64,000 nt of DNA from Saprospiraceae bacterium (lineage in GTDB: Bacteria > Bacteroidota > Bacteroidia > Chitinophagales > Saprospiraceae): positions 2,503 through 66,502 of the forward strand of contig JAHDHW010000008.1 of assembly GCA_020631105.1 (NCBI GenBank). The letters run 5' to 3'. Under the pieces are notes generated by a model. That model did not search any database. It was not told the DNA's origin and worked only from the letters and a program-made list of their open reading frames with translations. A program made the translations under genes and the position numbers. This document shows positions 51,985-57,720 of the stretch, piece after piece; position 1 is the first letter of the stretch; every line of letters begins with the position of its first letter.

Positions 51985-52452
51985 TTACACTCTAAAGTGT
52001 GCGAAAGCTCGGTTAGATTCCGCCATTTTGTGCGTATCTTCTTTTCTCTTAACCGCTGCACCCTCTCCTTTAGAAGCTGCGATTAACTCAGCAGCCATTT
52101 TTTCTGCGATACCTTTACCACTACGTGCTCTAGCAAATCGAATCAACCATTTCATCCCAATCGAAATTTTACGCTTAGCACGAATTTCTGTTGGAATCTG
52201 AAAAGTAGCTCCACCAACACGCTTACTTCTTACTTCTACCTGAGGCATAGCATTATTCAATGCTTTTTTCCAGATTGCGTGCTCATCTTCATTCGTACGC
52301 TCTTTAACTATATCCATAGCATCATAGAACGCTTTGAATGCAGTTGATTTCTTGCCCTCTAACATCAGCATGTTTACAAACTGAGTAATCATTGGATCCT
52401 TGTATCGTGGATCCGGAGCAATTATTCTTAATTTTGGTTTTCTTTTACGCAT
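51985..52452 (-). CDS. rpsG: 30S ribosomal protein S7
   Basis: 155 residues. [38 protein letters not shown] and [37 protein letters not shown] are S7, which organises the 30S head and contacts E-site tRNA. Confidence 0.98.
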
Positions 52453-52512
52453 TTCTTAGAAAATTTATACGCCTTAATATATTACATGACTAACGTCAAA
52501 TAATGAATCTTT

Positions 52513-52884
52513 TTATTTAGGTCGCTTCGTTCCGTATTTTGAACGACTTTGAAGTCGATCAGTTACACCTGCTGTATCTAAAGCTCCTCGAACAATCGTG
52601 TAACGCACACCAGGCAAATCTTTTACACGTCCTCCTCGAATCAATACAATTGAGTGCTCTTGCAAATTATGTCCTTCACCAGGAATATACGCAATCACCT
52701 CAACTCCGTTTGTCAATCGAACTTTCGCTACTTTACGAAGTGCCGAGTTAGGCTTCTTAGGCGTCGTTGTGTAAACACGCGTACAAACTCCACGTTTCTG
52801 AGGGCAAGCATCCAAAGCACGAGATTTGCTCGCTTCGACAATCTTTTTCCTGCCTTTTCTTACAAGCTGATTGATTGTAGGCAT
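52513..52884 (-). CDS. rpsL: 30S ribosomal protein S12
   Basis: 123 residues. [14 protein letters not shown], the decoding-centre loop [21 protein letters not shown] with the conserved lysine, and [17 protein letters not shown] are present. The loop is wild-type in form; I see no known streptomycin-resistance substitution at the first lysine of KKPNSA. First gene of the block, with a near-perfect promoter. Confidence 0.98.
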
Positions 52885-52989
52885 ATGTTAAAACTTTACT
52901 TAAATTTAAATTCTTCGATAATCTAGCTTAAGACCTTGATTTTATTGACTTTATAGAGTCAAAAAAGAACCTCGCCTCTTAAGCGGTTG

Positions 52990-53020
52990 CAAAGATACGA
53001 CTATTTTCCTCTTATACAAA
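52990..53020 (-). promoter_or_regulatory. rpsL promoter (TTTG-N19-TATCTTTG)
   Basis: Minus-strand -33 TTTG (53017-53020) and -7 TATCTTTG (52990-52997) with exactly 19 bases between them, the consensus Bacteroidota arrangement. Predicted leader about 100 bases before rpsL. Confidence 0.8.
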
Positions 53021-53123
53021 GCCCTCGGCGAAATATTTATCCATTTTTTCGAAGATTTTTCAAGCTTCAGCAAACATAATTTCATATAAAGTTTAAAAAC
53101 TTGTTTTTTTACATCAAAAACAC

Positions 53124-53573
53124 ATGAAAATCACTATTAGAGCTGCAAATATCGATGACATGCCGCAGGTGCACGAGTTAGTAAAAGAACTTGCCATTTA
53201 TGAAAAGGCAGGGCATGAAGTCACTACAACAGCTGCAGATTACGTAAACGACTTCACAGAAGGCCTTTTTGAGGTTTTGCTGGCCACCACAGAAGGAGAA
53301 ATTGTTGGAATAATGCTTTACTATACTACCTATTCTACTTGGAAAGGAAAAATGATCTATTTGGAGGACTTTGTGGTCAAAAAATCATACCGAGAACTTG
53401 GAGTAGGACAACAATTATACGATCACTTTATAGATATTGTCAAAGGAAAAGGAGCAAAACTGGCTAAATGGCAAGTATTGGACTGGAATAAACCTGCAAT
53501 CAACTTTTATAAGAAAAACAATGCGCATATTGAGCAAAACTGGTGGAATGTCAAAGTATTTATTCAACAATAA
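53124..53573 (+). CDS. GNAT family N-acetyltransferase
   Basis: 149-residue single GNAT domain. The start MKITIRAANIDDMPQVHELVKELAIYEK, the strand IYLEDFVVKKSYRELGVGQQLYDHFIDIVK (acetyl-CoA pyrophosphate loop, here RELGVGQQL) and WQVLDWNKPAINFYKKNNAH resemble diamine acetyltransferases (SpeG/SSAT-like). The substrate is not proven. It is transcribed away from rpsL. Confidence 0.88.
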   Translation: MKITIRAANIDDMPQVHELVKELAIYEKAGHEVTTTAADYVNDFTEGLFEVLLATTEGEIVGIMLYYTTYSTWKGKMIYLEDFVVKKSYRELGVGQQLYDHFIDIVKGKGAKLAKWQVLDWNKPAINFYKKNNAHIEQNWWNVKVFIQQ

Positions 53574-53666
53574 ATTGATTTTCAATCATTTAAGCCCCAA
53601 AAGAACCTTTTTATACATTTTTCGTTTCATATTAAGCAAACTATAATATTTCTTGAATAGTTTGCT

Positions 53667-53796
53667 TAAATTTGTATAAGGATACAGAAGTTATTAATTT
53701 TGATAAAATAATTTAGAATATAATACTAGTAATAGTATCAAAAATATAGTGTTTCATAGTGTGAGGGGTAACCGCTGCGGTGGTTGCTCCTTTTTT
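53667..53796 (+). ncRNA. Possible small RNA between -7 box and terminator
   Basis: A plus-strand -7 box TAAATTTG (53667-53674) is followed about 115 bases later by a terminator (53765-53796). There is no ORF between them. A small stem ATACTA-GTAA-TAGTAT lies in the middle. The transcript would be about 110-115 nt. No clear -33 TTG at consensus spacing, so this is a hypothesis; the terminator could instead serve the GNAT gene 190 bases upstream. Confidence 0.35.
53765..53796 (+). terminator. Plus-strand intrinsic terminator
   Basis: 9-bp stem GGGGTAACC / GGTTGCTCC (two G-T pairs) followed by TTTTTT. Confidence 0.8.
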
Positions 53797-53834
53797 ATTT
53801 ACTTGACTATAAGACACAGACCTAATAACCAGTA

Positions 53835-54812
53835 TTATACTTCACGTCCTAATAACTGGTTAGCTATCACTACCAAAGGTGTTTTCTTGGATTCAGGTGT
53901 ATCAATTGCGGCGAGCGCCTGAAAAGCTTCTTCCTGAAAACGATTTTTCACTTTTTCAGCTTCTTTCCGAATATCAAGGTTTTCAAAAATTGATTTTACA
54001 GCAGCTACCTTAGCTATTTCATTAGTCGTCGGAGTATTCATTAATATGGTCAATTGAGCCTTTATTGAAGGATCCGCTAGTTCGAGTGCTTTCAATACGA
54101 GGTATGTCTTTTTGTTTTGTATGATATCCCCTCCTACCTTTTTACCAAACTTCTCTGGATCTCCAAACGTATCTAGTATATCATCTTGTAATTGAAAAGC
54201 AACACCAGTCTTCCAGGCAAACTGATAAATCAAATCCGCATCCTTTTTGCAAGCCCCCCCTATGATTGCTCCAATTTTCATCCCTCCAGCTAACAAAGCT
54301 GCAGTTTTATAGCTAATCATTTTAATATATTCATCAATGGTCACATCCTGCCTTCTTTCAAAATTGACATCCAATTGCTGTCCTTCGCATACCTTTATAG
54401 CTGTATCATTAAATAATTCTAAAATCTCCGCCAGCTTTTTTGCATCATTAATCTGCGAAAGATACTTATAGGCATAAATCAACATTACATCTCCAGAAAG
54501 TATCCCTGTATTCGTATCATATTTAGTATGGACCGTAGATTTACCTCTCCTCAATGGAGCTTCATCCATGATATCATCATGCACCAGGCTAAAATTGTGA
54601 AAGATCTCAATTGCATATGCAGCAGGCAGGGCTTCTGCCAACTTATCTCCAAATAGCTCATAAGCCATTAATAACATTACCGGCCTCATTCGCTTACCAC
54701 CAAGCTCCATAATATAATTAACCGGTTCGTAGAGCTCTAAGGGTTGGCTCTTGAACCTTTGATCTTTTAAATAATTCAAAAAGAGCTTAGTCAGCACCTC
54801 AACATTATTCAT
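53835..54812 (-). CDS. Polyprenyl (isoprenyl) diphosphate synthase
   Basis: 325-residue trans-prenyltransferase that chain-elongates isoprenyl diphosphates. The first aspartate-rich motif is HDDIMD (D79-D83, no insertion) with GKSTVH downstream. The second is FQLQDDILDTFGDPEKFGKKVGGDI. GGKRMRP provides the IPP-binding residues. An aromatic residue (F74) five positions before the first motif hints at a medium chain such as GGPP, but product length cannot be fixed from this. Likely feeds quinone, carotenoid or undecaprenyl routes. Confidence 0.9.
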   Translation of the reverse strand: MNNVEVLTKLFLNYLKDQRFKSQPLELYEPVNYIMELGGKRMRPVMLLMAYELFGDKLAEALPAAYAIEIFHNFSLVHDDIMDEAPLRRGKSTVHTKYDTNTGILSGDVMLIYAYKYLSQINDAKKLAEILELFNDTAIKVCEGQQLDVNFERRQDVTIDEYIKMISYKTAALLAGGMKIGAIIGGACKKDADLIYQFAWKTGVAFQLQDDILDTFGDPEKFGKKVGGDIIQNKKTYLVLKALELADPSIKAQLTILMNTPTTNEIAKVAAVKSIFENLDIRKEAEKVKNRFQEEAFQALAAIDTPESKKTPLVVIANQLLGREV

Positions 54813-55213
54813 TTAATTTAAGTATGTTGTTAATCAATATGAGCGACAAGATAGACTTAAGTAGATAAAGATTATATCGTGTATCGCTATTAATTCCTTG
54901 ATAGTTTAAATAATCCGCTCATAACAAGGACCTATATCAAGGTGAAAAATTGTAACAAAAAAGCCTTAAAATAGTTAATCTAGGGAAATACATAGTATTT
55001 TCACATATTGAATCATGTCACATTTTTTAAAATAAACAACAATTCAGAGCAGGGAGAAGACTTAAATAGAACTTGATTTACACTCTCTCATTAAAACGGA
55101 GAAATAAAGACAATCAACCTGATATTTTAATTTACCAAAGCATTTTTAACGAAACCAATATAGTGCAACCTTTAGCTAAACATACTCGTTAAAAAGAAAA
55201 TTAGGAACCAATA
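54813..55213. other. Divergent intergenic region, prenyl synthase to response regulator
   Basis: 401 AT-rich bases. I see no ORF, no strong hairpin and no clean TAnnTTTG box for the response regulator gene. Confidence 0.4.
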
Positions 55214-55660
55214 ATGATGCAAAAAAATAGACCTGTGAATATATTATTAATCGAGGATAATCCTGGAGATGTCCGACTCACACAAGAGGCCTTCAAAGAA
55301 GGAAATATGTCCATCAACTTAGATGTAACTATGGATGGTGTAGAAGCTATCAAATACTTAAAAAAAGAGAGCCCTTTTGAGCAAGTTACAACTCCAGACT
55401 TAATCTTACTCGATCTAAATTTGCCTAAGCGTGATGGACGTGAAGTGCTACAGGAAATTAAAACTGACGATCTGTTAAAGAGAATACCTGTAGTCGTTCT
55501 AACAACTTCAAATGCGGAACAAGACATTTTGAAGAGTTATAATCTTCATGTAAATTGCTACATAAACAAACCTGTAGACTTCGATAAATTCTTTGATATA
55601 ATTCAAAAAATTGAAGACTTCTGGTTGAGCACAGCTATTTTACCTACAATGGTAAAATAA
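55214..55660 (+). CDS. Single-domain (Rcp1-like) response regulator
   Basis: 148-residue CheY-like receiver with no output domain. NILLIEDNPGDVRLTQEAFKEG has the acidic pair, LILLDLNLPKRDGREVL the phospho-accepting aspartate, VVVLTTSNAEQDI the switch threonine and CYINKPVDFDKF the conserved lysine. The EDNPGDVRL variant is typical of Rcp1-type regulators that pair with phytochrome-like or PAS kinases. It lies 116 bases upstream of a hybrid sensor protein on the same strand, suggesting they work together. Confidence 0.92.
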   Translation: MMQKNRPVNILLIEDNPGDVRLTQEAFKEGNMSINLDVTMDGVEAIKYLKKESPFEQVTTPDLILLDLNLPKRDGREVLQEIKTDDLLKRIPVVVLTTSNAEQDILKSYNLHVNCYINKPVDFDKFFDIIQKIEDFWLSTAILPTMVK

Positions 55661-55776: not shown

Positions 55777-57720
55777 ATGAATACCAATTCAAAAACAAAC
55801 ATCCTTGTCATAGAGGACAATCCAGGAGACTTTAACCTAGTAAAGATTCTATTAAAAGATGCCTCTATCAAACATGAACTCTTTCATGCCGACACCTACT
55901 TTGATGGTAATGAGGTTATCAAAAACAATGAGATTGACCTTGTTTTATTAGACTTATCTCTTCCTGATAGCTCTGGATTTAAGACGCTTTCCAATTTTAG
56001 AGAAAAATTTCCATTAGTTCCTGTAATTGTACTTACAGGTGTTAATAATGAGATTGTTGGCAACCAAGCGATTAAAGCAGGTGCTTCAGACTACCTTGTA
56101 AAAGGCCAATTCGACGGTAAAATTCTCGGACGATCTATCCGTTACTCACTTCATAGATTTAAAACACAGCTACAACTGGAAGCTACTGCTCAGCATCTTG
56201 CACTAAGTGAGAAAAGATACGTAGAAGCACAGGAAATGGCTCATTTCGGAAACTGGGAAATGGACATTGTTTCAAATGCAATGAAATGGACCGACGAAGT
56301 CTATCGAATCTTTGGTTATCGTCCAGGTAGCATTAATCCTACTTTCTCAGACTACCTCAATTACGTTCACACCGAAGATCGAAAAATGGCGGAAGCCTTC
56401 TTCGAAGACTCTACCAAAGATGGTAAGCTGAATACTCTAGAACATAGAATTTTAATCGATGGTAGGACAATAAAGCATGTAGCTATTCAAGCAAAGGTGC
56501 ATTTCGAACCCATTACTAACAAGATCATTCTAGTTGGTGTAATTCAGGATATCACACAACGTAAGCTTTCAGAACAGCTTATCCTAGAGAAAAATATCAA
56601 CAAGGGGACTTCCAAGCTAAAAGAGGAAGCCCTTGCCGATATGAGTTTTCATATCAGAACACCTTTATCTTCTATTGTAAACCTCTTATACATTCTCGAA
56701 AACAGTACAATCAATAATCAACAAAGAGAATATATTGAAGGGCTAAAAACATCTGTTGATGATTTATCAATCATGACTAATAACCTACTCAACTTTAGTT
56801 TATTAGTTTCTGAAAAATTAAATATCAACGAAGAAGAAATCAATCTTAAAGAGTTTTTAACTAGTGTAGCAAAGGTTACTCAAATAAAAACAGATAATAT
56901 TGGATCTTCTTTTAGCCTAGAAGGACTTGATAACCTTCCTGAAAAAGTACGGTCTGATTCTAATAAAATTACTCAAATCTTATATAACCTTATAGATAAT
57001 ATTCTACGAGCAACTCCACTTAATAGCCTAAGTATGAATTGCGAGTTGATCCCCGGAAATGACGAAGACGCAAAGTTAAAGTTCAGTATAAATGCGTTGG
57101 GGCAAAGCTTATCCGAAGAAGAACAGAAGAGCCTGCTAGAAGCTGATAAACTACTTGAAGTCTACAATGGTGAGTCCACTTCTGAATCAAGTCCTCTTTT
57201 AGGAATGGGAATTGCTTCCAAACTCATCAAAATGCTTGGAGGGACATATCATATCTCTTCGACTTCTGACCATACTATTCATGAAGTAAACCTTCCGGTC
57301 AAAACACTTAAGCAATTAAGATTTAACGAGCAGCAAAAACCAGAAGTTCCTCTCAAAATCTTATTGGTGGAAGATCATTTCTTAAACCAAATTGCGACCA
57401 AAAAAGTATTAACGACTTGGTCTAATCTCGTCAGTGTTGATATCGCAGAAAACGGTCTAATCGGTGTTGAAAAATTCCGGGAACATGGCTATGATCTAGT
57501 ACTCATGGACATACAGATGCCTGTGATGGGCGGAATTGAAGCAACTCAAAAGATCAGGGAACAAAGCAACACCCCAATCATAGCATTAACCGCTAATAGC
57601 TCGAAACAAGAATCAGAACGTTGCTTCGAGGCAGGTATGAATGATTACATCGCAAAACCTTTCAAACCACAAGATCTTTATATGAAGATAATGTCTCAAC
57701 TCGTTCCAATTAACTCTTAA
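55777..57720 (+). CDS. Receiver-PAS-(degenerate kinase)-receiver hybrid protein
   Basis: 647-residue cytoplasmic protein with no membrane helix. Receiver 1 (about 8-125) has D59 in LVLLDLSLPD, the threonine in VIVLTG and the lysine in DYLVKG. A PAS domain follows (about 155-265). The kinase dimerisation helix reads LADMSFHIRTPLSSI: the phospho-acceptor histidine of the usual SHEIRTP is F291, with H292 one place later. The ATPase domain keeps the N-box asparagine (NLIDN), but the G1 aspartate is replaced (SINALGQS, A440). Receiver 2 (about 525-645) is intact with D578 (LVLMDIQMPVMGG). It looks like a pseudo-kinase relay or scaffold. Confidence 0.85.
   Translation: MNTNSKTNILVIEDNPGDFNLVKILLKDASIKHELFHADTYFDGNEVIKNNEIDLVLLDLSLPDSSGFKTLSNFREKFPLVPVIVLTGVNNEIVGNQAIKAGASDYLVKGQFDGKILGRSIRYSLHRFKTQLQLEATAQHLALSEKRYVEAQEMAHFGNWEMDIVSNAMKWTDEVYRIFGYRPGSINPTFSDYLNYVHTEDRKMAEAFFEDSTKDGKLNTLEHRILIDGRTIKHVAIQAKVHFEPITNKIILVGVIQDITQRKLSEQLILEKNINKGTSKLKEEALADMSFHIRTPLSSIVNLLYILENSTINNQQREYIEGLKTSVDDLSIMTNNLLNFSLLVSEKLNINEEEINLKEFLTSVAKVTQIKTDNIGSSFSLEGLDNLPEKVRSDSNKITQILYNLIDNILRATPLNSLSMNCELIPGNDEDAKLKFSINALGQSLSEEEQKSLLEADKLLEVYNGESTSESSPLLGMGIASKLIKMLGGTYHISSTSDHTIHEVNLPVKTLKQLRFNEQQKPEVPLKILLVEDHFLNQIATKKVLTTWSNLVSVDIAENGLIGVEKFREHGYDLVLMDIQMPVMGGIEATQKIREQSNTPIIALTANSSKQESERCFEAGMNDYIAKPFKPQDLYMKIMSQLVPINS

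Follow-up and report, generated by a model that had tools for sequence, protein, structure and literature searches.

Only a small number of pseudo-histidine kinases from nature have been examined, which leaves room to ask how often, and why, dead sensor kinases persist. In enterobacteria, the histidine kinase-like RcsD has no working acceptor His and serves a paralogous phosphorelay; it offers a parallel to the family described here, from which it differs by a C-terminal HPt domain that the Saprospiraceae pseudo-kinases lack. The comparisons used in this work are RetS and DivL. RetS of Pseudomonas aeruginosa, the regulator of GacS, is a HisKA hybrid whose HATPase is degenerate; it is unable to autophosphorylate, keeps the Thr four residues after the acceptor position (H+4) and a phosphorylatable C-terminal receiver (REC) domain, and acts on another sensor kinase (PMC5992135). 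On GacS, it takes phosphoryl groups onto its REC2, works as a Thr-dependent transmitter phosphatase and blocks autophosphorylation (PMC5992135). DivL of Caulobacter and other Alphaproteobacteria has an aromatic residue (Tyr) for the acceptor His across its orthologues, its kinase activity and CA domain are dispensable, and it senses the single-domain regulator DivK~P, with which its DHp-CA part co-evolves (PMC4211667). A pseudokinase variant of ChrS from Corynebacterium glutamicum also modulates output while kinase-dead and forms heterodimers with the paralogous HrrS, although this is a laboratory-evolved CA-domain frameshift and not an ancient fixed family (PMC9491836). Finally, in CrdS kinase activity needs the acceptor His and Glu, while phosphatase activity needs the H+4 Thr/Asn: the half-life of the phosphorylated response regulator is 53.5 min alone, 0.7 min with wild-type CrdS, 2.6 min with H371A, 0.4 min with E372A and 47.6 min with N375A, the H+4 substitution that abolishes phosphatase activity (PMC3510030).

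A hybrid kinase homologue without acceptor His and G1 Asp

We analyzed a gene at positions 55777-57720 (+ strand) of the window, meaning the whole stretch of 64,000 nucleotides of Saprospiraceae DNA under study. From ATG to stop it encodes a 647-aa protein with the architecture REC-PAS-HisKA-HATPase-REC. Pfam identified two Response_reg stretches, PAS_3, HisKA and HATPase_c, the last two both passing the cut-off. In order along the + strand, these are REC1 (residues 7-125, 55795-56151), PAS_3 (residues 169-255, 56281-56541), the HisKA or DHp domain (residues 282-345, 56620-56811; Pfam HisKA 282-341, 38.6 bits), a degenerate HATPase_c or CA domain (residues 394-508, 56956-57300), whose match of 28.5 bits barely exceeds the 26.4 cut-off, and REC2 (residues 528-637, 57358-57687). 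A predicted structure, with a pTM of 0.39 and so usable for single domains only, gave a DHp domain with two helices (260-308 and 314-344) and an alpha/beta CA domain.

The H-box reads MSFHIRTPL. Its ungapped alignment with intact paralogues (SHEMRTPM) places Phe291 (codon TTT, 56647-56649) in the column of the phospho-acceptor His and His292 in the Glu column. The G1 box reads INALGQS, with Ala440 (codon GCG, 57094-57096) where 23/23 intact relatives show Asp; it has lost this Asp and also its second glycine. On the other hand, N-box Asn404 and Asn408, G2 Gly476 and Thr295 at H+4 (56659-56661), the phosphatase residue of HisKA domains, all remain. The active-site sets of both receivers are complete as well, E13/D14/D59/T87/K109 in REC1 (phospho-acceptor Asp59 codon 55951-55953) and E532/D533/D578/T605/K627 in REC2 (phospho-acceptor Asp578 codon 57508-57510). 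Therefore, the original prediction of a lost acceptor with a shifted His, a lost G1 Asp and two receivers with all key residues was exact to the residue.

The acceptor His was lost once and ATP binding decayed later

Orthologues were drawn from genomes of the Saprospiraceae, the family of the window, giving 116 distinct sequences that we compared with 23 intact relatives. Residue 291 was Phe in 110 orthologues, Tyr in 3 and another residue in two, the remaining sequence having a gap there; none had His, while all 23 intact relatives have it in this column. A loss common to 116/116 orthologues is not due to chance. In the maximum-likelihood tree all 116 pseudo-kinases fall on one side of a branch with a support of 100, so the acceptor His was lost once, in the ancestor of the family, and the loss is fixed. 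Outside Saprospiraceae, a sample of 399 genomes of the order gave three genomes with a match at E<=1e-100, and all three proteins carry an intact SHEIRTP. An HPt domain, which intact relatives from other families have, is also missing from the Saprospiraceae pseudo-kinases.

The G1 box had another history. Position 440 is Asp in 44/116 family members, and DxGxG is whole in 28, of which 27 also have the N and G2 boxes. As these 28 keep an intact G1 while none keeps the His, the acceptor was lost first and, judging from the motifs, the capacity to bind ATP decayed afterwards in several lineages, including that of the window. The idea that both motifs were lost together is thus rejected. An alignment of orthologues had been proposed as a check of whether the two changes are fixed; the loss of His passed this check, while A440 turned out to be lineage-specific. 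In members from one genus (g31; loci L239, L240 and L057), the RTP of the H-box has decayed too, to Lys or other residues, and the intact paralogue was not found in their genomes; these H-boxes are possibly a second step of degeneration.

An active kinase should have an acceptor His followed by Glu or Asp, together with N, G1 and G2 boxes. Here F291 and H292 stand at the first two positions, and G1 is NALGQS beside N404, N408 and G476, which makes autokinase activity very unlikely, in line with the earlier proposal that the protein does not work as a kinase. We considered whether it might be an unorthodox kinase that autophosphorylates on His292. The window protein and 49/116 orthologues do have His here, and 27 members keep all three boxes. 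Against this, position 292 is elsewhere Gln (28), Asn (25), Gly (5) or Tyr (3), it falls in the column of the Glu and misses the acceptor by one residue, and the window protein has neither the Asp nor the second glycine of G1. H292 is therefore not a conserved replacement acceptor, and we give this explanation hardly any credence.

Selection is strongest on the DHp domain

Four close pairs of orthologues gave a summed dN/dS of 0.039. By domain the values were 0.016 for DHp, 0.025 for REC2, 0.027 for PAS, 0.036 for REC1 and 0.061 for CA. When the window gene was compared with its nearest relative, dN came to 0.067 for DHp and 0.59 for CA (dS being saturated). Over the 116 orthologues, mean pairwise identity ranged from 0.25 in CA, the most variable domain, to 0.61 in REC2, the best conserved. 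The gene is thus under purifying selection, and constraint is greatest in the very domain, DHp, that no longer has its catalytic residue.

These results bear on the possibility of a pseudogene or of a sequencing or assembly error, which the disappearance of two catalytic motifs from the same protein might suggest and which the original prediction had named as its own refutation, should orthologues prove intact. On the contrary, the frame is open, 116 distinct orthologues share the loss of His and none regains it, dN/dS is about 0.04 and the neighbouring gene is conserved. We consider this explanation ruled out for all practical purposes.

Thr295 is kept in 110/116 orthologues. In REC2, D578 is found in 115/116 and D533 and K627 in 116/116, while REC1 D59 is kept in 95/116. 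In addition, four polar positions, S299, N302, N336 and N339, are conserved and peculiar to the pseudo-kinase family. The strong conservation of REC2, with its Asp almost invariant, would fit a pure phosphate sink or scaffold, as was first proposed, in which REC2 (and REC1) drain phosphoryl groups from kinases or HPt proteins while DHp and CA serve as spacers only; the first of the RetS mechanisms is a precedent (PMC5992135). Yet a spacer should have neither the lowest dN/dS of the protein nor family-specific conserved polar residues, and a bare sink or scaffold leaves both the constraint on DHp and the kept Thr295 unexplained. We therefore regard it as improbable. Considering that DHp is the most constrained domain and keeps Thr295, the data point instead to an active DHp surface that, as with RetS and DivL, may be tied to a paralogous phosphorelay.

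An Rcp1-type regulator is evolutionarily coupled to the pseudo-kinase

Immediately upstream, at 55214-55660 on the + strand, lies a gene for a 148-aa single-domain response regulator. By phmmer its product matched RcpA (1k68, 2e-45, residues 9-145) and Rcp1 (1i3c, 2e-41), and it has a single REC, a full-length Rcp1-type sequence and an intact active site. It is therefore of the same type by sequence as the phytochrome response regulators Rcp1 and RcpA; unlike in those systems, there is no phytochrome at the locus and the neighbouring histidine kinase homologue is dead.

The Rcp1 gene precedes the pseudo-kinase on the same strand in 77/112 scorable loci, often at a distance of tens of bases or overlapping. 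In all 77, E14, D15, D67 and K119 are intact, and T97 is kept in 76 (one Thr-to-Ser change). The 35 pseudo-kinase genomes without an adjacent Rcp1 had no close Rcp1 orthologue anywhere, five of them containing only a homologue of 43-48% identity. Conversely, almost every Saprospiraceae genome with an Rcp1 orthologue also has the pseudo-kinase. The synteny, the missing close orthologues elsewhere and the co-occurrence rule out a chance neighbour and support Rcp1 as a real partner, evolutionarily coupled to the pseudo-kinase, as the original prediction had suggested. One exception is genome G101 (L260:5719-7254), in which the Rcp1 orthologue is directly followed by a YpdA-like gene, the pseudo-kinase being gone from between them; this natural deletion is useful as a control.

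We then asked which part of the pseudo-kinase tracks Rcp1. Where Rcp1 is present, 74/77 loci keep the REC1 Asp, and where it is absent 18/35 do, giving p=5e-8 if rows are counted as independent; a sign test on independent pairs had 5 usable pairs, too few for significance. In a likelihood test of correlated evolution, REC1 Asp was lost at a rate of 0.67 in the absence of Rcp1 and of 0.08 in its presence (p=0.0026), a correlation that is partly phylogenetic, as are those with the paralogue described below. Neither Thr295 (p=0.36) nor the G1 Asp tracked Rcp1 in the same test.

Relatives in other families (L265, L266 and L268) combine an intact, similarly built kinase with an Rcp1-like gene directly in front of it, so the pairing of Rcp1 with the kinase probably predates the loss of kinase activity. 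The intact kinases of L265 and L266 end in a C-terminal HPt. Within the window (51985-55660), the Rcp1/pseudo-kinase pair adjoins genes for a polyprenyl synthetase and a GNAT acetyltransferase, beside the rpsL-rpsG-fusA cluster, and this synteny is common to several genera (L038, L039, L040, L044, L049).

A partner of this kind recalls the reversed signalling of DivL. The His-less DHp-CA might sense Rcp1~P made by another kinase and relay the state of the bound regulator through REC2, PAS or a bound kinase, with no phosphatase activity. Besides the precedent of DivL itself, this explanation is consistent with a conserved partner that is also a single-domain regulator and that is phosphorylatable by sequence in 77/77 loci, even though the pseudo-kinase next to it should be unable to phosphorylate it. 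However, it is the REC1 Asp and not the DHp residues that tracks Rcp1, whereas in DivL the co-evolving part is DHp-CA (PMC4211667), and the third of the family without Rcp1 still keeps the DHp motif. Signalling of the DivL type is therefore unlikely, although less so than a mere sink.

The DHp domain may be linked to an intact paralogous relay

The genome of the window also codes for a 793-aa REC-PAS-HisKA-HATPase-REC kinase with an intact H-box (L264:2065-5800). At that locus the kinase gene follows a 126-aa gene from a small family that recurs, and is itself followed by genes for an HPt protein, likewise of 126 aa, and for a single REC; largely the same set occurs in other Saprospiraceae (L058, L059, L062, L063). 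Among 398 genomes of the family, 124 have both the pseudo-kinase and the intact paralogue, 18 the pseudo-kinase alone, 8 the paralogue alone and 248 neither.

Where the paralogue was not found, identity to the consensus dropped from 0.64 to 0.45 in DHp and from 0.74 to 0.58 in REC2, while REC1 barely changed; as these genomes tend to have divergent pseudo-kinases, general divergence confounds this comparison. Thr295 was lost in 4/13 members without the paralogue vs 2/102 with it (Fisher 0.001), and its faster loss without the paralogue gave p=0.018 in the test of correlated evolution. A closer look did not find the intact paralogue in G033, G124, G137, G159, G228 and G274; its absence from G002 is probably a false one due to a split contig, and several such genomes are incomplete. 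As several tests of association with the paralogue were run and the groups differ in divergence, the link between DHp decay and loss of the paralogue is suggestive and not proof.

Discussion

Taking these results together, we lean, at somewhat better than even confidence, towards a kinase-dead accessory hub comparable to RetS and DivL, in which the paralogous relay is the target of DHp and REC2, and Rcp1 is coupled to REC1. With the acceptor His and adjacent Glu lost, and G1 lost in many members, the protein could almost certainly not autophosphorylate. REC2 would still accept phosphoryl groups, fed in trans by another kinase or an HPt protein, the likeliest donor being the co-occurring intact paralogue and its HPt. 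DHp would still dimerise and dock partner proteins, possibly including a kinase, and a Thr295 that outlasts His and Glu is what one would expect of a transmitter phosphatase or a kinase-binding module of the RetS type. Rcp1, which co-evolves with the N-terminal REC1, may be a dedicated partner in physical contact with it, and the PAS domain presumably gates the interactions of the hub.

The phosphatase part of this proposal is its more delicate point. Thr295 belongs to the motif RTPL, all of which is conserved and may have a structural role, and PleC H610A loses phosphatase as well as kinase activity (PMC3510030), so that a DHp without the His is not necessarily a phosphatase.

With RetS the window protein shares the degenerate HATPase, the H+4 Thr and the Asp of a C-terminal REC, and the RetS kinase region is among its nearest solved structures by sequence and by fold. 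Unlike RetS, which keeps the acceptor His and Glu in an HExxT motif (PMC5992135), the family has no His; and where RetS has two C-terminal RECs, the pseudo-kinase has one REC at its N-terminus and an Rcp1-type neighbour gene. As for a partner kinase, the observations are co-occurrence and correlated decay, from which we infer binding. The resemblance to DivL consists of the aromatic acceptor residue, a kinase activity that appears dispensable and the single-domain regulator. DivL, however, belongs to another phylum, lost its His independently, is a multi-PAS protein with no REC described and keeps its N, G1, F and G2 boxes (PMC4211667). The Saprospiraceae proteins have one PAS, Phe in 110/116 members and two RECs, of which REC2 is the most conserved domain; the part that co-evolves with the regulator is REC1 and not DHp. 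In the open-access literature we found no published account of such a family in Bacteroidota or Saprospiraceae. The Saprospiraceae pseudo-kinases are a new and independently arisen family, probably like RetS and DivL in action but belonging with neither.

More tentatively, and at less than even confidence, the hub may be an ancient, lineage-wide dead kinase that cross-connects two response-regulator pathways, one through REC1 and Rcp1, the other through a DHp with H+4 Thr and no His and the paralogous kinase-HPt relay. With the same reserve, a regulatory layer might here have been kept after the catalytic step was lost, leaving a dedicated kinase-free transmitter module.

In conclusion, the role of the pseudo-kinase is probably to regulate other signalling proteins and not to phosphorylate them. 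The family provides more than 100 natural variants with a single loss of the acceptor and several later losses of ATP binding, together with two distinct partner genes that differ in the domains of the protein with which their presence is correlated. With it one can test which parts of a sensor kinase remain important after catalysis has been lost, and it is a natural test of whether a His-less HisKA domain can be a dedicated phosphatase.
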